From positions 1 through 64,000 of the IMG/VR virus record IMGVR_UViG_3300008267_000364: a DNA stretch of 64,000 nt; one strand, written 5' to 3'. Of the stretch, positions 5,282-41,166 are shown piece by piece. The notes below the pieces were generated by a model. The model did not search any database. It was not told the origin of the DNA and saw nothing but the letters and a program-made list of their open reading frames with translations. Positions within the stretch are counted from its first letter, which is position 1, and every line of letters starts with the position of its first letter. Source of the stretch: a virus. The position numbers and the translations under genes were made by a program.

Positions 5282-6319
5282 TTAAGAAAAAACTTGAATT
5301 TGTAAAACATCCATTGTAACTGTTGATGGACTAGCTCCTTCTAAAGCAACACCTACTACATCCCATTTAGCATCATCACTATTATATACTAATGCAATAT
5401 ATAAAACTTTAGATATTGTAGTAGATACTGGTAAAGTAGTATTTACTGCTCTATACATAGTATCAAAAGCAATAGTTCTAGAAACACCATTATCTTTAAT
5501 TTTAATTAACATTGATTGTCCTTGAACAGGAGAACCTGTTGGATTAGCTAATGTTAATCCTACAGCTTGTGCTGTAATTATAACTACGTCATTATTACTT
5601 GTTGGAGTTACTGTAGCAGCACTAGTTACTGTTTGTAATCTTGGAGTTATAAAAGTTTGATCTCCAGTATTAGTTCCTGATAAAGTTAACCCACTATCTT
5701 TAATTATTTTTCCTGTTGTTCCATCAAAAAATGCAACATTATTATTTACTGAACTTGCAGGACCTGTAACAGCACCTACAATATTCTTTTGAATAATATT
5801 CCAATAAATTCCTACAGTTGCTTGATTTCCACTTACAGTTCCATCAGTGTTACAAATAATCATATCACCAACTTCAACATCTATTCCTGAAGCACCACCT
5901 ATTTTACCAGCAACATTTGCAATATACATAAATCCAGCATCTGCAGCAGGATAATTAGGATTTGTAGAACAATCTAAAACACCTTTATAAACTAAAGCAT
6001 TAGCATTTCCTAAAATATTATCAGTGTAAACTTTAACAGCATTTTGAGTAGGATATAAAGTATCACTTGTTCCTAAAGAAGTATTTGTAGATTTATTAGA
6101 TACATTTTCAGGAGTAAAACCTAAACTTGTTTGAAATAAAGAAGTTGCCCAATCATAAACTGCTTTTACACTAGGATATTTTACATTACTAGCTTGATCA
6201 GTTACAACTGAAGTACTTTTATTTGCTACATCTTCAGGAGTATAAGGTAATGGTGAACCACCTCCACCTCCACTATTGCTAGAAAAAACTTTTCTAATAT
6301 TTTTTACTATAGAAATCAT
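5282..6319 (-). CDS. Tail fibre protein with TPE-x-V-x-NKST repeats
   Basis: 345 residues. After a flexible SNSGGGGGSPLP linker come two tandem repeats, LPYTPEDVANKSTSVVTDQ and LGFTPENVSNKSTNTSLGT, each ending in YPSxxAVxxxxx. These repeats are typical of long tail fibres in phages of Bacteroidetes. A beta-rich C-terminal part follows. It shares an ATG/TAA overlap with the upstream gene. Likely a trimeric fibre shaft. Confidence 0.75.
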   Translation of the reverse strand: MISIVKNIRKVFSSNSGGGGGSPLPYTPEDVANKSTSVVTDQASNVKYPSVKAVYDWATSLFQTSLGFTPENVSNKSTNTSLGTSDTLYPTQNAVKVYTDNILGNANALVYKGVLDCSTNPNYPAADAGFMYIANVAGKIGGASGIDVEVGDMIICNTDGTVSGNQATVGIYWNIIQKNIVGAVTGPASSVNNNVAFFDGTTGKIIKDSGLTLSGTNTGDQTFITPRLQTVTSAATVTPTSNNDVVIITAQAVGLTLANPTGSPVQGQSMLIKIKDNGVSRTIAFDTMYRAVNTTLPVSTTISKVLYIALVYNSDDAKWDVVGVALEGASPSTVTMDVLQIQVFS

Positions 6320-6672
6320 TATTTATAATATTGAATATGTAAAGTATTAGTTCCTGTTGAAATAGGAATAACTCTAAAATTAATTAAATTTGGATAACCT
6401 GTAACATCAAAAAAGTCTAGTCTTGATAATGCTAAACCATCTGTAGAAGTAGGTTCAACAATACTACCTAACATTAAATATCTTAATGCAGGAGTATCTG
6501 TAATATCAGATTCTACTCTAATTTCAGCATACTTAGCATCTACTGGAATATTATTAAATCCTGTTAAACCGCTAACATCTAGTTTTTCATAACCACAAGC
6601 TAATAAATTATTTCTATTTACTCTAAGTAATTCTCTTAAAAGACTTTTACTATTATCTATTGAAGCACTCAT
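6319..6672 (-). CDS. Small tail-region protein (117 aa)
   Basis: 117 residues with an amphipathic start (LLRELLRVNRNNLLACGYEKLDVSGL) and a beta-rich remainder ending LHIQYYK. It overlaps the fibre gene downstream by one base and is probably co-translated with it. No domain recognised; a structural accessory role is inferred from position. Confidence 0.6.
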   Translation of the reverse strand: MSASIDNSKSLLRELLRVNRNNLLACGYEKLDVSGLTGFNNIPVDAKYAEIRVESDITDTPALRYLMLGSIVEPTSTDGLALSRLDFFDVTGYPNLINFRVIPISTGTNTLHIQYYK

Positions 6673-32174: not shown

Positions 32175-32560
32175 GGGCCTGACATGGTAAGAGAGTGAAA
32201 CATTTCTATAACAAGCAAGTATCACATTGCCTATTAAATCGTGTGATTAATAAATTAGTAGGTTAAAGAATAATTGGCAACAATGATTCAAAACTAGGAA
32301 CTATCCTAGATCTTAAATATGCTTTAGCTAACAATATGTTAGTTAAGACAGAAGTTGAAGAACTTTTAGCAGCTTAGGATTAGCAAAATCTTTCAAATCC
32401 AGGTAGTTGTAAAGACTGGGATTGTACAGTTAAACAACAAGTTGTAGTTCTTTAAAAACTAATATTCAGCTGAAACTATGAAGAAAAATTAGTTATCTAA
32501 ACTTGTAGAAACTTATAAAAAAGTTTTATTCTAACGTGGGTTCGATTCCCACCAGGTCCA
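32175..32560 (+). ncRNA. ssrA: Phage-encoded tmRNA
   Basis: A 386-nt RNA gene. The 5' end GGGCCTG pairs with CAGGTCC (32553-32559) as acceptor stem; the T-arm is GTGGG-TTCGATT-CCCAC with discriminator A at 32560; no CCA is encoded. TTTCTA-CAAG near 32203-32216 pairs with CTTG-TAGAAA near 32500 as helix P2. The D-region TGGTAAGAGAG and GTGAAAC resemble bacterial tmRNA. A frame from GGC (32276) to TAG (32375-32377) encodes a ~33-residue tag starting GNNDSK, containing KYALANN and ending EELLAA, a ClpXP-type degron. Bacteroidetes tags also start with Gly and contain YALA. It should rescue stalled ribosomes during infection. Confidence 0.85.
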
Positions 32561-32573
32561 CTAAATGCCAAAT

Positions 32574-32626: not shown

Positions 32627-32697
32627 AGTCAGGTGGCGAAATTGGTAGACGCAGGTATCTCAAGATATGATTACAGGTTCGAGTCCTGTCCTGACTA
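32627..32697 (+). tRNA. tRNA-Leu-like gene (anticodon CAA), irregular anticodon stem
   Basis: Acceptor AGTCAGG / CCTGACT with discriminator A, D-arm GCG-AAATTGGTAGA-CGC as in leucine tRNAs, and T-arm ACAGG-TTCGAGT-CCTGT are all canonical. The loop CTCAAGA at 32659-32665 would give a CAA (Leu) anticodon, but the flanking 5-base segments do not pair and the long variable arm expected of tRNA-Leu is missing. At 71 nt it is short for tRNA-Leu. It may be a damaged or unusual tRNA. Confidence 0.6.
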
Positions 32698-32861: not shown

Positions 32862-33007
32862 AGTTAGATAGCTTAATGGTAAAGCAGGAGTACCTCCAGT
32901 GGATTAGAGTATACGAGAAGGGTGAAAGTTCCCATTCCTAGTTGACCACCACTCTCCTTTAGTGGCATCCTTTATTGGATATGTGGGTTCAAATCCCACT
33001 CTAACTA
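32862..33007 (+). tRNA. tRNA-like gene with ~100-nt insertion
   Basis: Canonical acceptor (AGTTAGA / TCTAACT, discriminator A), D-arm (GCTT-AATGGTA-AAGC) and T-arm (GTGGG-TTCAAAT-CCCAC). Between D-arm and T-arm lie about 97 bases instead of the normal 22 or so. They can fold as AGGAG/CTCCT outside AGTGG/CCACT plus an ATCC/GGAT hairpin. No classical anticodon arm is evident. It shares the word TACACGAG/TATACGAG with the insertion in the preceding element. Confidence 0.45.
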
Positions 33008-33830: not shown

Positions 33831-34040
33831 ATGCTTAGTAAAGAAGAAGTAAAAGAAATTATTAATGGTAATAATCTTCATCCATTAGATATGGTAAAAG
33901 TAATAGTAAAATATATCTATGATCTTAAAAATGTAGAATTAGATATTAATAATATTAATTTACCTAATAATCCTAAAGATGGAATGTTTCTAAATATAAT
34001 GTATTCAGTAGCAAGTAATTATTATAGAAATGAGCAGTAA
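33831..34040 (+). CDS. Small hypothetical protein (69 aa)
   Basis: 69 residues, MLSKEEVKEIINGNNLHPLD at the start. It overlaps the DNA polymerase start by 11 bases, so the two are coupled. Function unknown. Confidence 0.5.
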   Translation: MLSKEEVKEIINGNNLHPLDMVKVIVKYIYDLKNVELDINNINLPNNPKDGMFLNIMYSVASNYYRNEQ

Positions 34041-35862
34041 ATGGCAAAAAGTAATTTGTGATGTTGAGGTTTACTCAAACTGTTTTCTCTGTGCTATACA
34101 AGATGTAGATACTAAAGAGAAAATAGTTTGGGAAATTTCAGATAGAATAAATGAATACAGTAATATTGTAGAATTTTTTAATAAGTTTAAACAATATCTT
34201 ATTACATTTAATGGAATACATTATGATAATTGTATATTGATGTATATTATCCACAATAATCTAACTAATGTAGAAAATTATCTACAAAAACTTAAAGAAT
34301 GGTCAGATTATATTATCAATAATGAATTTTGGTGGAATGACAAAGAATTAAGTAAATACAAGTATCATAATAAATGGACAGATATAGATTTGTATTTATA
34401 CTGGTCTAAAATGCTTAGATTAAGTAAGAAATTAAGCTTAAAAGGGCTTGCTATTCAACTTAATTATCCTACAGTACAAGAATTACCATTTGATCCCTCA
34501 ATGAGCTTAAATCATGCTCAAATTGATGAATTGAGACACTATAATAGTGTACATGATTTAGGTATTACTCAATTATTGTATGATTCAATGATTAATGAGA
34601 TTAGGTTAAGACAATATATCAATACTGCTTATAATTTAAAATGTTATTCTTGGGATGCTCCTAAGATAGCATCTGAATTATTGTTACAAGAATATTGTAA
34701 AATAACTGAACAAGATCCTAAATATGTTAAAAGTCTTAAGTTTGAACATAATAATAAATTAGAATTACCAGAAATTAACTTTCAATTAGATTGTTTTAAA
34801 GATTTATATAAAGGAATGTCTAACTCTTTAAATGAGTTTAGTAAAGAAATTGTATTAATTAAAAACAGTACTGCATTAAAATTAACTTATGGTAAGGGTG
34901 GTTTACATAGTGTAAATAAAAATGAATCTTATTATGAAAATGATAGTCATTGTATAATAACTTCAGATGTAGCTAGTCTATATCCAAATCTTATTATCAA
35001 TTATAAATTATTAAGATATAAAGAGGTAATTGAATTATATACTAATGTTAAAGCTGATAGGATTGAAGCTAAAAGAAATAAAGAGAAGTCTAAAGATGCT
35101 TTGTTAAAATTAATTCTTAATTCAACTTCAGGTATGATAGATAATCAATATTCTTGGCTTTATTATCCTGAAGGTGCAATGAAACTTAGATTAATGGGTC
35201 AATTAATTCTTACAGTAGCTATTGAAAGATTGGTATTAGCTGATTATCAAGTAGTTAGTGCAAATACAGATGGTATTGAAGTTGTTGTTCCTAAAAATAA
35301 AATTGAAGATTATAAACAAATTATTGATCAAGTTGGTAAAGAATTTAATTTAGAATTTGAACATGAGTTTTATAAAAAGATTATCTACATGAATGTAAAT
35401 AATTATTTAGCTGAGGGTTCTAAAATTAAACAAAAAGGTTTATTTGTTGAGAAACCTGAATTAGGTAATAGTGTAGATTATCTTGTAATACCTAAAGCAT
35501 TAAAAGCTTATTACATTGATAATATTCCTGTTAAACAATTTGTTGAATCACATAAAAACATATTAGATTTTTGTTGTAGTCAAAAAGTAGATAAGTCTTA
35601 TCATATTGAATGGACTTCACCTGATTTTGTTAAATCTAAACAACAAAGATTAAATAGGTTTTATGCTTCAACTAAAGGTGGTTATATCTTTAAATGTAGA
35701 GATGGTAAACAACATCATTTATTAAAAGAATCTGGTGTAATGATATATAATAATCATAATTCTGAAGTATTTCCTACAGATGTTAATTATAGTTTTTATA
35801 TATCAGAAATTAATAAAATTATTAATCAAATAAACTGTAATAACCAAATGAGTTTATTTTAA
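34030..35862 (+). CDS. Family B DNA polymerase with 3'-5' exonuclease
   Basis: 610 residues, short for family B. Exonuclease motifs: ICDVEVYSN (D11, E13), FNGIHYDN (N61, D66) and YNSVHDLG (Exo III). Polymerase motif A is DVASLYPNL with D313, motif B KLILNSTSGM, and motif C SANTDGI with N412-T413-D414. The usual DTD of motif C is therefore NTD. It should be the replicative enzyme of the phage, working with the helicase and primase genes downstream. Confidence 0.88.
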   Translation: MSSKWQKVICDVEVYSNCFLCAIQDVDTKEKIVWEISDRINEYSNIVEFFNKFKQYLITFNGIHYDNCILMYIIHNNLTNVENYLQKLKEWSDYIINNEFWWNDKELSKYKYHNKWTDIDLYLYWSKMLRLSKKLSLKGLAIQLNYPTVQELPFDPSMSLNHAQIDELRHYNSVHDLGITQLLYDSMINEIRLRQYINTAYNLKCYSWDAPKIASELLLQEYCKITEQDPKYVKSLKFEHNNKLELPEINFQLDCFKDLYKGMSNSLNEFSKEIVLIKNSTALKLTYGKGGLHSVNKNESYYENDSHCIITSDVASLYPNLIINYKLLRYKEVIELYTNVKADRIEAKRNKEKSKDALLKLILNSTSGMIDNQYSWLYYPEGAMKLRLMGQLILTVAIERLVLADYQVVSANTDGIEVVVPKNKIEDYKQIIDQVGKEFNLEFEHEFYKKIIYMNVNNYLAEGSKIKQKGLFVEKPELGNSVDYLVIPKALKAYYIDNIPVKQFVESHKNILDFCCSQKVDKSYHIEWTSPDFVKSKQQRLNRFYASTKGGYIFKCRDGKQHHLLKESGVMIYNNHNSEVFPTDVNYSFYISEINKIINQINCNNQMSLF

Positions 35863-36610: not shown

Positions 36611-36844
36611 ATGAGAACTATTACAGTATTAAATCCACAAACACAAACTCCAGTAACTATTAACTCTGATGTTACAACTTGGGCTGAATTACAAGAAGTT
36701 TTAATTAACAATAACATTAATCCAACAGGTATGAAGGGTATTGTTAGAGAAACTCGTAATTCATTAGAGTCAGGATCTGCTATTTTACCAGAAACTAACT
36801 TTACATTATTTTTATCAGCTTCTAAAATGGCTGCAGGTCACTAA
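36611..36844 (+). CDS. Ubiquitin-like (beta-grasp) modifier protein
   Basis: 77 residues, the size of ubiquitin. The predicted order beta (RTITVLNPQTQ), beta (PVTINSD), helix (TTWAELQEVLINNN), beta (KGIVRETRNSLE), beta (LPETNFTLFLSA) fits the beta-grasp fold, and the PxTNFTLFL pattern resembles Ubl proteins in bacterial conjugation operons as I recall them. The chain ends AAGH: trimming H77 would expose G76 as a conjugation-ready Gly. E2-, JAMM- and E1-like genes follow within 2 kb. The downstream terminator would make the modifier more abundant than the enzymes. Confidence 0.72.
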   Translation: MRTITVLNPQTQTPVTINSDVTTWAELQEVLINNNINPTGMKGIVRETRNSLESGSAILPETNFTLFLSASKMAAGH

Positions 36845-36870
36845 TATTAATTTAATTAAAAAACTATAAA

Positions 36871-37119
36871 ATGTCAAGTATAGATACAAACTCTATAATT
36901 AATTCTTTAAGACAAGAATTAAGTTTAAAATTAGAAGAAATGATTGAAGAAATTCAAGAGATTCTTGAAGAAAAAATTCAAGATGCTGTTGAAAATATTC
37001 AAGATGAAATAAATAATGGTGATCATGATTCAATAGCTCCTATTAGAGGAAGAGAGCTTACTCAAGCTGAAATACTTTTAGCTGAACAACGTAAAATAGA
37101 AAGAGAACTAGGTTTGTAA
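36871..37119 (+). CDS. Coiled-coil protein in the Ubl unit (82 aa)
   Basis: 82 residues. The first 50 residues are a strongly acidic coiled coil (LKLEEMIEEIQEILEEKIQD), followed by a loop PIRGRELTQAEILLAEQRK. It lies between the Ubl gene and a terminator. It could be a scaffold or substrate for modification; function unknown. Confidence 0.55.
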   Translation: MSSIDTNSIINSLRQELSLKLEEMIEEIQEILEEKIQDAVENIQDEINNGDHDSIAPIRGRELTQAEILLAEQRKIERELGL

Positions 37120-37124
37120 CTAAC

Positions 37125-37152
37125 AAAGCCCTTCTGAAAAGAGGGGCTTTTT
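37125..37152 (+). terminator. Intrinsic terminator between Ubl and E2-like genes
   Basis: An 11-bp stem with one G-T pair, AAAGCCCTTCT / AGAGGGGCTTT, a GAAA tetraloop and a short T run. Partial read-through would set a high modifier-to-enzyme ratio. Confidence 0.88.
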
Positions 37153-37165
37153 AAATTAAATTAAA

Positions 37166-38419
37166 ATGGAAACAATAGAAGAAGTTAGCCCATTATTAGA
37201 CATATCTACGTTAAAAGAAGGTGATTATTTTTATCATAATGATTATGATCAATCATTTTTTAAATTCATAAGAATACATGATGAAAAATACATATTATCT
37301 GAAAAAATTGATAATACTAGTTTTGATTTAATATCATCAAATTATCTTTTAGAATTACCAAATCTTGCAAAAAAAATTCAAATAATTAAAGATGAATATT
37401 TTATAAACAATGTTGAAAATTTTCGTATTTCAATAGGTAATATGTATAGAGTATTATCTGATGCAGAAGATGATTATTTTGCTTATAAAAAAAGATTAAT
37501 AAATTTTGAAGATAGAAAACAAAGATCAAAGTTTATAGAAGTATTGAAACATCATTTTGATGAAGACCATTATGAAATAAATAAAGTTGGATCTGAATTA
37601 CATTTTATTTTAAAGTATGATGATATTACTATTGAAAATTCTGAAGACAGATCTCATTTTATTAAATCATTATTTGTTAAGTTAAAATTTAATACTAACA
37701 GTAATACTTTTAGTGATAATATGGAAGGTTATAGAGGTGAAATGTCTATTAAAGAGTTATGTTCTTCTTATTTTCATAGTCATTTGAGTACTCATACATC
37801 TAGTTTTCAATCATTTTGTTTAGGTGCTTCAGAATTAGGTATTCTTTTATCTGATTTACACAATAAACAATTTAATCAAGATTCTTTTGATTTACTTTTA
37901 TATACTATTTCAGAATATGTTAAATGGGAATCTTTAGCTGGTGGACCTTACATTAAAATAAAAGATTTAAGTTATTCTACTAATAGAACTACTTTAAATT
38001 CAATAAATGTTGATGATACTAATAATACTATAAAAGCTTTCATAGATTCAAAATCAGATTTTAATACTAAATTTAATTTTAGTAGTAATTCTATTGAAGT
38101 TGTTAAAGATGAACAGTTTGTAAAAAACATTACTAAACTTATTCCCGATAGATTAAAAGTAATTATGGTTAATGATACTACATCACCTATTTGTGATATG
38201 GAATCTACTAAAAGAAGTGCAGTAAGTAAATTAGGTACATTAACTAAATTTTCATTTAAAGGTAAAATGTATCCATGTTTATATGAAGAACCTGAGTTTC
38301 AACAACTTAATAATCAAGATAACATAGAAGCACATCCTTTATTAGTAGATAAAGTTAAAAAACATTTAGAACAAAAAATTAATAGTCACTTTTTAAAACA
38401 ATTAAATGAAAAAGTATAA
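37166..38419 (+). CDS. E2-like ubiquitin-conjugating candidate
   Basis: 417 residues. The key signature is YFHSHLSTHTSS followed by FCLGASELG: H204 and H206 with C218 in an FCLG context, the arrangement seen in prokaryotic E2-like proteins, where the Cys carries the modifier as a thioester. A helical N-terminal part and a C-terminal extension (residues ~300-417) flank the core. It overlaps the JAMM gene by 14 bases. Assigned on the motif and on the neighbours; the fold is not proven. Confidence 0.62.
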   Translation: METIEEVSPLLDISTLKEGDYFYHNDYDQSFFKFIRIHDEKYILSEKIDNTSFDLISSNYLLELPNLAKKIQIIKDEYFINNVENFRISIGNMYRVLSDAEDDYFAYKKRLINFEDRKQRSKFIEVLKHHFDEDHYEINKVGSELHFILKYDDITIENSEDRSHFIKSLFVKLKFNTNSNTFSDNMEGYRGEMSIKELCSSYFHSHLSTHTSSFQSFCLGASELGILLSDLHNKQFNQDSFDLLLYTISEYVKWESLAGGPYIKIKDLSYSTNRTTLNSINVDDTNNTIKAFIDSKSDFNTKFNFSSNSIEVVKDEQFVKNITKLIPDRLKVIMVNDTTSPICDMESTKRSAVSKLGTLTKFSFKGKMYPCLYEEPEFQQLNNQDNIEAHPLLVDKVKKHLEQKINSHFLKQLNEKV

Positions 38420-39518
38420 AGAAATAAATTTAAAAGCTAAATCTAAATTAATCATTTCTAAAGAACTTCAATCTCAAATTATGTTCTTACATAATAAGGT
38501 TAAAGATATTGAGTGGTCAGGTATATTATTTCACAGTGTAGTATCTGGAAATATCAATGAACCTGAAACTTTAGTATTGAAAGCTGAAAAAGTATATTTA
38601 CAAGATATTGGTGTAAGTACTTATACAGAGTTTGAAACTAATGAAAAGATATTAGATTTTTATGATGCTTATCCTCAAGCAATGTCTTGGAAAATGAGCT
38701 TAATTCACACTCATCATTCAATGCAAGCTTTCTTTAGTGGTACAGATACTCAAGAATTACATGATAATGCTGGTAAATATAATTATTATTTATCATTAAT
38801 AGTTAATCATAAATCTGAGTTTTGTGCTAAAATTGCAATAGCTGCTGAATATAACATTGAAAAAGCAAATTATACCTTTAAAGGTTTTGAAGGTATAGAA
38901 ACTATTGAAACTTCAGGTACTAAATCTGATGTATTGATGTTAATAGATTGTGATATTGAGTTTGAACAAGATGAGTTTGATGTACAAAAGTATAATGAAA
39001 TAAAAGAATCTAAGAAAGTAGTTAAACCTACTTATGATTTCTCAAATTCATTTGGTGAAGGTTTTGGTAGATATGGTTATCCTAAAACAACCTATTCTTC
39101 TAATCCTGCATATAACTATAATTACAATAGTCAAACTAATTTATTTGAAGAACCTAAAATAACTACAACTTATGAATTATCTGATTTTGAAGTAAGAAAG
39201 TTTTTAGTAAAATGGTTAACATTAGATGTTACTAATGATACAATTTTATCTGATGTATTATCTTTAGTTAATAAGTATAAAAATACTAAAATAACTAACT
39301 TTATTGAAGAAATAGATATGAATTTAGAATACTTTATTGAAGAAGTATTTCCAAACTTACCTGCTGGTAAAGAAACTGATAAGTTATTACTTGCTGCAGT
39401 AGATGTGTTATCTAAGTATTCTTCATTTAAAGTTACAAATAGTATTATTGATTTATTATCAATGTATATATCAGACTATTATAAAACTACTAAAAAATCT
39501 AAAACTAGTAAAGTATGA
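38406..39518 (+). CDS. JAMM/MPN metallopeptidase (Ubl protease)
   Basis: 370 residues. A complete JAMM motif is visible: E36 in KDIEWSGILFH, then H101-x-H103, seven residues, S111-x-x-D114 in LIHTHHSMQAFFSGTD. This zinc site cleaves ubiquitin-like C-termini or isopeptide bonds. Residues ~210-250 are a Tyr/Asn-rich linker, and the C-terminal third is a helical domain. It is sandwiched between the E2-like and E1-like genes with overlaps on both sides, as in PRTRC and Bil operons. Confidence 0.85.
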   Translation: MKKYKEINLKAKSKLIISKELQSQIMFLHNKVKDIEWSGILFHSVVSGNINEPETLVLKAEKVYLQDIGVSTYTEFETNEKILDFYDAYPQAMSWKMSLIHTHHSMQAFFSGTDTQELHDNAGKYNYYLSLIVNHKSEFCAKIAIAAEYNIEKANYTFKGFEGIETIETSGTKSDVLMLIDCDIEFEQDEFDVQKYNEIKESKKVVKPTYDFSNSFGEGFGRYGYPKTTYSSNPAYNYNYNSQTNLFEEPKITTTYELSDFEVRKFLVKWLTLDVTNDTILSDVLSLVNKYKNTKITNFIEEIDMNLEYFIEEVFPNLPAGKETDKLLLAAVDVLSKYSSFKVTNSIIDLLSMYISDYYKTTKKSKTSKV

Positions 39519-40201
39519 GTCAAATTAATGTCAAAACTTCAAGATTTAATGAAGCTCCTTGGTTTAAAGAAGGACAAGATGTTTTAATAGGTGGTTCAGG
39601 TGGTATAGGTTCTTGGTTAGCATTATTCTTAGCTAGACAAAGTTGTTATATTTATATTTTTGATGATGATAACTTTGAAGAAGTTAATATTGCAGGTCAA
39701 TTCTGTAAAGTATCTGACATTGGTAAATCTAAAACATCAGCTACTAGAGAAAATATTATTGATTTTACAGGTAATAGAAATGTAGACGAATTTGGTTTAT
39801 ATAGTGAAGACTCATTAGCTAACTCAATAACTTTTTCTGGTTTTGATAATATGAAATCAAGAAAAATTATGTTTGATAATTGGGTAAAATATATAAATGA
39901 TGATAATGAAGATAATTTTTCAGTATTTATTGATGGTAGACTTAATGCTGAAGAAGCAGAAATCTATGTTGTAACTCCAGATAAAATTGAAGATTATCGT
40001 AAAACATTATTTGATGATTCTGAAGCTAGTCCATTAAATTGTAGTTATAAATCTACTAGTCATTGTTCAGCAATGATAGCAGCATTAATGACTTCTGCAT
40101 TTAATAATGCTTTTACCAATTACAAATTAAAGCTTAATTATCGAGAAGTTCCTTTTAGTATTAAGTATCAATTACCATTATTAAATTTTGAAATAAAATG
40201 A
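39515..40201 (+). CDS. E1-like (ThiF/MoeB-type) adenylyltransferase
   Basis: 228 residues. The nucleotide-binding loop DVLIGGSGGIGSWLA has G26-G27-S28-G29-G30-I31-G32, followed by strand IYIFDDDNFEEVNIAGQ with D50-D52, the standard ThiF pattern; the usual Arg of the NxxRQ motif is replaced (NIAGQ). Candidate catalytic cysteines are C176 and C184 in PLNCSYKSTSHCSAM. The enzyme would adenylate the C-terminal Gly of the modifier and pass it to the E2-like protein. Confidence 0.85.
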   Translation: MSQINVKTSRFNEAPWFKEGQDVLIGGSGGIGSWLALFLARQSCYIYIFDDDNFEEVNIAGQFCKVSDIGKSKTSATRENIIDFTGNRNVDEFGLYSEDSLANSITFSGFDNMKSRKIMFDNWVKYINDDNEDNFSVFIDGRLNAEEAEIYVVTPDKIEDYRKTLFDDSEASPLNCSYKSTSHCSAMIAALMTSAFNNAFTNYKLKLNYREVPFSIKYQLPLLNFEIK

Positions 40202-41166
40202 TTACACCAATATTTAAAATTATACCAAATGGGCAAATTTCTAATAATTCTTTAAGTTTTAATACATCATTAGATTATATTCCTACATTACTTATTCCTA
40301 AATTTAAAATAGTTTCAAGTAATCCTATGCTTAGTAGTGGTTCTTTTAATATTAAAAATTGGGATGTTAAAAAAAGAAATGAAGTTTTTGCTAAATATAC
40401 TACTCTAAGATATAATCATCAAACTCAAAGATTAGGAAAATTATTTCATTCTCATTTATGTGTAAAAGTTATTAATAATAATTCTATTGTTGAAAGTTTA
40501 AAAACTACTAAAGAAGATATTCTTAATATTATAGATAATACTATTTATGGTATTAGTGATACTGTAAATGTTATAGATTATTTTGGTAGTAGACCATCAA
40601 CTGAATTATTAGGTTATTTTAAAAATCATTATAATTATGATCAACTTTCAAATCTTACTTATGGTTCAGGACCAAATAAAACAACTTGTTTAATAAGCTC
40701 TGAATTTATAGCAGATAATTATAATAATGTTAATTGTGATATAAGTTATGTTTTAATGATAAAGAAAGAATATATTGTTGAATATATTTTATCATCATTA
40801 TTAGGTAAACCTATAAACAAAAGTAATTTTCAATGGTGGGTTGATAGTAGAAATACTACAAGATTAAATGAATTTAAAAAGCGATCTTATAATCAGTTTG
40901 TAAAACATATAAAAGAAACTGATATTGAAATTATTGCTAAAGAAAATTTAAATAATCTTATCTTAAATTTTGAAAGTCCTAAGATTTCATCAATATCTGA
41001 AATCAGAGATTTTAATCAAAAATTAAACTTACATGTGAAAAACTTTATGTATAATTCAGAAGAAAACCTACCTGAATTAGACTTAAAAATTAGTAAAGAA
41101 GTTATAAAAACAGTACCTTTAAAAGGTATGAAAATTAAAAAAGTAGAACCACAATTAGTAGATTAA
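40198..41166 (+). CDS. Unknown partner of the Ubl module (322 aa)
   Basis: 322 residues, overlapping the E1-like gene by four bases. Visible features are VIDYFGSRPSTELLGYFKNH, GSGPNKTTCLISSEF and WWVDSRNTTRLNEFKKRSYNQFV, with a Lys-rich tail. No known family. In PRTRC operons additional proteins of unknown function also accompany the E1 and JAB genes, so it may recognise substrates or regulate the cascade. Assignment by position only. Confidence 0.55.
   Translation: MITPIFKIIPNGQISNNSLSFNTSLDYIPTLLIPKFKIVSSNPMLSSGSFNIKNWDVKKRNEVFAKYTTLRYNHQTQRLGKLFHSHLCVKVINNNSIVESLKTTKEDILNIIDNTIYGISDTVNVIDYFGSRPSTELLGYFKNHYNYDQLSNLTYGSGPNKTTCLISSEFIADNYNNVNCDISYVLMIKKEYIVEYILSSLLGKPINKSNFQWWVDSRNTTRLNEFKKRSYNQFVKHIKETDIEIIAKENLNNLILNFESPKISSISEIRDFNQKLNLHVKNFMYNSEENLPELDLKISKEVIKTVPLKGMKIKKVEPQLVD

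Follow-up and report, generated by a model that had tools for sequence, protein, structure and literature searches.

A putative ubiquitin-like conjugation operon among the replication genes of crAss-like phages

Known bacterial ubiquitin-like conjugation systems are mostly antiphage defenses or plasmid cassettes of unclear role. Bil systems combine four activities, namely a ubiquitin-like modifier (Ubl), an E2 with a CEHH motif, a JAB peptidase, and an E1 built as a pseudodimer of an inactive and an active adenylation domain (PMC11354881), and the PRTRC cassette, the type 6d operon of Iyer, which occurs on plasmids and ICEs, has an E2 whose invariant His lies downstream of the Cys, with none upstream, as well as a JAB domain that follows JAB-N (PMC1779556). 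In the annotated plasmid cassettes used here for comparison, the PRTRC genes run in the order E-C-F-B-A-ThiF, with C as the Ubl, B as the E2, A as the JAB peptidase, and ThiF as the E1. Here, we analyze an operon in a 64,000-nt window (the whole stretch of DNA that was searched) of the 69,178-base virus record IMGVR_UViG_3300008267_000364, which encodes a Ubl, a putative E2, a JAMM metallopeptidase, an E1-like enzyme, and a partner protein, X (Table 1). This gene set is, in our assessment, quite probably a ubiquitin-like conjugation module that is encoded by the phage and akin to PRTRC of plasmids. Viruses that carry it would thus probably modify other proteins, during infection, with a small protein tag that they supply themselves.

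Operon layout and recurrence among phages

The virus is crAss-like, as judged by the relatives of three proteins, the terminase, the portal protein, and the major capsid protein. All three match phage families, with the terminase retrieving crAss-like and other Bacteroidetes phages. A preliminary description of this DNA had proposed that a Ubl, an E2-like protein, a JAMM peptidase, an E1-like protein, and a further partner are encoded consecutively on the plus strand. Every feature that it named is found at the position and on the strand that it gave, and its placement of a Ubl, a JAMM peptidase, and an E1 within one operon of a crAss-like phage is borne out by our analysis. The genes do share a strand, and the last four overlap as in one translationally coupled operon (by 14 bases between E2 and JAMM, and by 4 bases each between JAMM and E1 and between E1 and X), but the Ubl and E2 genes are not strictly adjacent, because a gene for a protein of 82 residues separates them.

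Table 1. Genes of the operon and the gene directly upstream, in window coordinates.
Feature	Position	Strand	Distinguishing characters
W96, 96 residues	36288..36578	+	directly 5' of the Ubl gene; homologues in five searched sequences (window and four loci)
Ubl, 77 residues, beta-grasp modifier	36611..36844	+	ends KMAAGH; AlphaFold2 model and Foldseek; Gly76 in 80/80
82-residue helical protein, proposed detached Ubl tail	36871..37119	+	proposed from position and tail-like C-terminus
Putative E2-like protein, 417 residues	37166..38419	+	YFHSHLSTHTSSFQSFCLG; H204-S-H206, C218-L-G; downstream E255-S-x-x-G
JAMM/MPN+ metallopeptidase, 370 residues	38406..39518	+	E36, H101, H103, S111, D114
E1-like protein (ThiF superfamily), 228 residues	39515..40201	+	GGSGGIG loop, R10, D50, N58, Q62, K73, D111; Cys176 candidate catalytic residue
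X, 322-residue partner	40198..41166	+	4-base overlap with E1

More than 80 viral contigs carry the same module in the same order, as do phages of Bacteroides and Flavobacterium that are in culture. When IMG/VR was scanned with an alignment of the E1, 80 loci were obtained, and a relative of the E1 is present in 74 GenBank phage records, the carriers including the Bacteroides phages crAss001, the PhiCrAssBcn isolates, DAC15, and DAC17, and the Flavobacterium phages Fpv1-3. Among the searched sequences, the window included, models built for each gene from small seed sets detect the Ubl in 80, the E2 in 85, the JAMM protein in 86, and the E1 in 88, and the loci that are without one of the genes are mostly truncated contigs. 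The order Ubl-E2-JAMM-E1 holds in all loci, and X then follows in most of them, and in nearly all that are of sufficient length. Homologues of the window X were found in five searched sequences only, all close relatives, and it showed no detectable similarity when aligned to the genes that occupy this position in Steigviridae. The module is not a chance assembly, because it combines a JAMM motif that is rare in shuffled sequences, a ThiF match at 7e-11, and, across more than 80 loci, an unchanging gene order and conservation of the catalytic residues. Conservation of these residues at 20-40% identity implies, as a prediction, that the enzymes are active. Current annotations of the genes read "thiamine biosynthesis protein", "contains metalloprotease domain", or "hypothetical", with a single record naming an "E1 enzyme family protein".

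Scans against Pfam, NCBIfam, and PADLOC found no family for the Ubl, E2, or X proteins, nor for W96 other than a weak chance match in PADLOC. Short contigs from one Clostridium and two Spirochaetia metagenome-assembled genomes carry the whole phage module or part of it, and these are most likely phage DNA that was binned with the bacteria. In a tblastn search of a plasmid collection, the best-covered match proved to be an ordinary MoeB-like gene and was discarded.

The modifier, its tail, and the enzymes

The 77-residue protein had been read as beta-grasp from its letters, and its predicted structure has that fold. AlphaFold2 (AF2), given input alignments drawn from rows of the loci with the GenBank phage records left out, produced a model with a mean predicted local distance difference test score (pLDDT) of 85.5 and the element order b-b-a-b-b-b. 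Foldseek matched this model to ubiquitin, SUMO, and UBX with a best E of 8.8e-4 and a TM of about 0.6-0.7, and also to Bacteroides fragilis Ubb and to a bacterial complex of a Ubl with a deubiquitinase. Searches of PDB sequences gave no match for either the Ubl or the E2. The column of Gly76 holds Gly in all 80 sequences, commonly in the setting K-x-[KRA]-[SA]-G, and the residue that follows is variable; a divergent Ubl (L026) that the search model overlooked has KFG by eye.

Past this Gly, the Ubl of most relatives is fused to a tail of 50-220 residues. Many of the tails end in SPYSDDEIDDMF-like motifs (a conserved acidic-Phe end), and no known domain is common to them. In the window and three other loci (L010, L017, and L069), by comparison, the Ubl stops 1-3 residues past the Gly, the window protein ending in G-H. 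In L069, the separation is due to an inserted HNH-type gene, which stands right behind KKIKSG-KF and is followed by a tail-like reading frame as a gene of its own. The 82-residue gene of the window lies where the tail would be, its protein has homologues in L001, L002, and L010, and its end, LLAEQRKIEREL, resembles the tails of several relatives. It is thus probably, to judge by position and similarity, the split-off tail of an ancestral Ubl-tail precursor. That tag and tail can be separate proteins fits cleavage by the JAMM protein past the Gly, and the earlier suggestion that this enzyme could trim His77 gains credibility from a Gly that is invariant and followed by either variable residues or a long tail. 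Separately, the Ubl tail at 6616-7266 of L048 holds a C-terminal domain of ribosomal protein L7/L12 (Pfam, 1.6e-10).

The JAMM motif pointed out in the preliminary description is present, and its five residues are conserved across the relatives, with a lone Met in the H101 column. The pattern HxHx7SxxD arose in 9 of 20,000 shuffles of the 370-residue protein. Pfam Prok-JAB matches 27 of 40 relatives and PRTRC_A matches 21 of 40, and the profile of the phage family matches PRTRC_A at 78% (1.8e-5). The domain is N-terminal, with the Glu at residue 36 and the rest of the motif at residues 101-114 of 370. In several loci, the gene is interrupted: Rfam places group I introns near the codons of the HSH in L042 (7477-7723), L046 (8142-8354), and L068 (7555-7814), and in L005, L017, and L061 the gene is split at a similar spot by a long insert that has no Rfam match, and that contains an endonuclease gene in L005.

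The 228-residue protein contains the GGSGGIG loop noted previously, is matched by Pfam ThiF (7e-11), and matches structures of ThiF, UBA5, MccB, and E1. R10, the GxGGI loop (G27, G29, and G30), D50, D52, N58, Q62, K73, and D111 are invariant, in 87-88 of 88 sequences. Two cysteines had been put forward as catalytic candidates, and these now separate clearly, with Cys176 found in all 87 covered sequences and Cys184 not conserved. The profile of the phage E1 matches PRTRC ThiF at 99% (4.9e-18) and the E1 of 6A-MBL systems at 95.7% (1e-8), and in a maximum-likelihood tree the phage proteins form one clade (100/96) that is sister to PRTRC ThiF (91/87) and stands apart from MoeB/ThiF and from CBASS/6A-MBL.

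The 417-residue protein is probably an E2, in view of its operon, its invariant Cys, and its motif. C218 and H206 are each present in 82 of 82 sequences and H204 in 78 of 81, such that the HSH...C218 feature noted previously is both real and conserved. In the AF2 model (pLDDT 82.6, with ten-residue means above 90 over most of residues 121-270), the core runs from a helix through four strands and a loop bearing HSH and Cys218 to two helices, which is the UBC order. The best local match between this protein and PRTRC protein B pairs both the cysteines and the C-x-G motif, at an E of 0.07 that is not significant. A comparison by hhalign with the E2, E1, and JAB proteins of 6A-MBL gave the E1 as sole match, and is uninformative for the E2 because the JAMM control failed as well. 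Six loci (L023, L026, L027, L029, L035, and L077) encode E2-like proteins of 600-720 residues with a long N-terminal extension, and in L062 a group I intron (Rfam) lies inside the E2 gene (6225-6456).

Several results weigh against this assignment and against conjugation more broadly. When the 417-residue model was searched with Foldseek, no UBC or RWD structure from PDB matched it confidently, and a viral library yielded phage homologues only. The element order and the C-x-G motif fit an E2, and the fold is the weakest point of the assignment. The Pfam E2 families match none of 61 relatives, and comparing profiles with those of known E2s gave no significant match, in a test that two accepted prokaryotic E2 families fail as well. 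The E1 departs from the usual R-Q motif: MoeB-type enzymes have an Arg directly before the corresponding Gln, and here that position is Gly in 87 of 88 sequences (G-Q).

An alternative is a sulfur-carrier pathway, in which the E1 would thiocarboxylate the Ubl, sulfur would pass to a nucleotide, a tRNA, or a cofactor, the JAMM protein would free the carrier, and the 417-residue protein would be the acceptor enzyme, as in ThiS/ThiF and JAMM-linked pathways. The closest curated models for the E1 include ThiF and MoeB, and the E1 consists of one short domain; in addition, the 417-residue protein has no recognized E2 fold, and the C-terminus of the carrier would be a single Gly after Ser or Ala. 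We nevertheless consider such a pathway rather improbable: no rhodanese, cysteine desulfurase, or thiamine or molybdopterin gene is annotated in the neighborhoods read, bar the E1 itself where it is so named, the E1 groups with PRTRC rather than with MoeB/ThiF, Cys176 never varies, and conjugation operons have a matching set of genes.

Genomic setting and likely function

Among loci of at least 16 kb, a DNA primase gene lies within 10 kb of the operon in 65 of 65, an exonuclease gene in 63, a DnaB-type helicase gene in 59, and a Sak4 gene in 53. The window operon likewise sits between a DNA polymerase gene (34030-35862) and genes for helicases, a primase, and a recombinase-like ATPase, on the strand opposite the structural genes and well away from them. 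This placement bears on a role in virion morphogenesis, with the Ubl and JAMM proteins acting in particle assembly as lambda TAPI and TAPK do. Pairs of a Ubl and a JAB protein are indeed known from lambdoid tail modules (PMC1779556), but those modules as described have no E1, and an operon on the opposite strand, far from the structural genes and among replication genes, makes this role very improbable here.

Under the conjugation reading that we prefer, the Ubl gene would first yield a precursor that is longer at its C-terminus (by a single residue here, and by 50-220 residues in most relatives), which the JAMM protein would cut past the invariant Gly. The E1, to judge by its superfamily residues, would then use ATP to adenylate this Gly and load the Ubl on Cys176, and the 417-residue protein would carry it on Cys218 in the manner of an E2 and hand it to a target, perhaps with help from X. 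The JAMM protein may also remove the Ubl from targets. These would most likely belong to the replication and recombination machinery of the phage, or to the host proteins that are encountered at this point. Replication or recombination targets are favored by the setting among replication genes, together with the occurrence of PRTRC on plasmids with ParB, the common theme being replicon maintenance, and we rate them about as probable as all other targets taken together. A further point on the opposing side is that the link to replication comes from the gene neighborhood only. More tentatively still, a fuller scheme may be proposed in which the JAMM protein separates tag from tail past the Gly, the E1 and E2 tag replication or recombination proteins, and the tail, which has a SPYSDDEIDDMF-type end in many relatives, docks on the replication machinery.

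The preliminary description had offered three functions, and of these the marking of proteins during replication, or a role early in infection more generally, is favored by a setting that recurs in 65 of 65 long loci, whereas countering host defense and protecting the tail from Bil are only possible. In a counter-defense role, the Ubl would be put on a host defense protein, or the JAMM protein would strip or block modification of phage proteins by a host Ubl system of the Bil or CBASS type. A Bil-like system has been reported from a Bacteroides strain (PMC12135933), the JAMM, E1, and E2 parts resemble those of defense systems, and the module is patchy across crAss-like families, with the Suoliviridae relative cr10_1 having none in the replication half searched. 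A pure antagonist, however, needs only a JAMM protein or a decoy Ubl, and in 65 of 65 long loci the module lies inside a conserved replication cluster, in fixed order and with its own Ubl and E1, such that we regard counter-defense as unlikely, if less so than the other alternatives considered here.

Should tagging of replication proteins prove correct, such a pathway would do for viruses what SUMO and ubiquitin do at replication forks, and would suggest that the PRTRC cassette, too, may act as a modifier for replicon maintenance. An abundant order of gut phages carries a complete-looking set of its own, conserved over large sequence distance and among replication genes, and recognizing it as such would replace misleading labels such as "thiamine biosynthesis protein". 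The targets of tagging and its purpose are open to direct tests, because cultured carriers (crAss001, DAC15, DAC17, and Fpv1) are listed with their hosts.

Upstream of the operon, the window also contains a tmRNA gene (32175-32563) with the ARAGORN-predicted tag GNNDSKLGTILDLKYALANNMLVKTEVEELLAA, a tmRNA being present in cr10_1 too, and two tRNA-like genes (32627-32697 and 32862-33007), of which one has an irregular anticodon loop and the other, which may be degenerate or contain an intron, has ~70 bases inserted in its anticodon arm.

Comparison with described conjugation systems

We found no paper that joins crAss-like phages with ubiquitin-like conjugation, in a literature search that mostly left subscription papers and preprints outside, so that prior notice elsewhere is possible. 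Among described systems, the lambda tail-assembly protein I and its JAB partner share with the phage module a JAB peptidase and a Ubl in which a conserved Gly is followed by a C-terminal domain, but as described they have neither E1 nor E2 and sit among tail genes. CBASS type II Cap2-Cap3 and the E2-E1-JAB set of 6A-MBL have the E1, E2, and JAB activities, whereas the phage module consists of separate proteins rather than fusions, has its own Ubl, is accompanied by no nucleotidyltransferase or MBL gene, and has an E1 on another branch. Bil shares all four activities, but a close kinship with Bil is not supported, as the phage module has a single Ubl domain, no CEHH after the E2 Cys, and an E1 that is one ThiF domain of 228 residues rather than two, and it resides in phages, among replication genes.

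The nearest relative is, on sequence evidence, the plasmid PRTRC cassette, which the preliminary description had named as relevant and which the sister position of the E1, the JAMM profile match, and a collinear gene order (C-F-B-A-ThiF against Ubl-(helical)-E2-JAB-E1) now place closest. The two also share the JAMM signature H-S-H...FFS-x-TD, the C-x-G of the E2, and an association with replicons. In contrast to PRTRC, the phage E2 has HSH upstream of the Cys and no invariant His after C218, the phage JAMM domain is N-terminal rather than behind JAB-N, the phage Ubl is mostly fused to a tail, and the phage operon has the extra gene X. By position and by family scans of the operon surroundings, no PRTRC ParB, E, or F gene stands beside it. 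TIGR03736 scores the window E1 at 17.5 bits against a cutoff of 144.75, and searches with PF14460 in several bacterial phyla, which are not the main reported range of that family, and with TIGR03737 in the phage found no PRTRC proteins.

With HSH upstream of the Cys, no downstream His, no JAB-N, scores far below the curated cutoffs, no CEHH, and no two-part E1, the module belongs to neither PRTRC nor Bil by their definitions. Judged from its genes, it would work like systems of the Bil and PRTRC type, lies nearest to PRTRC, and falls outside both as defined, as a phage-specific clade with an architecture of its own.

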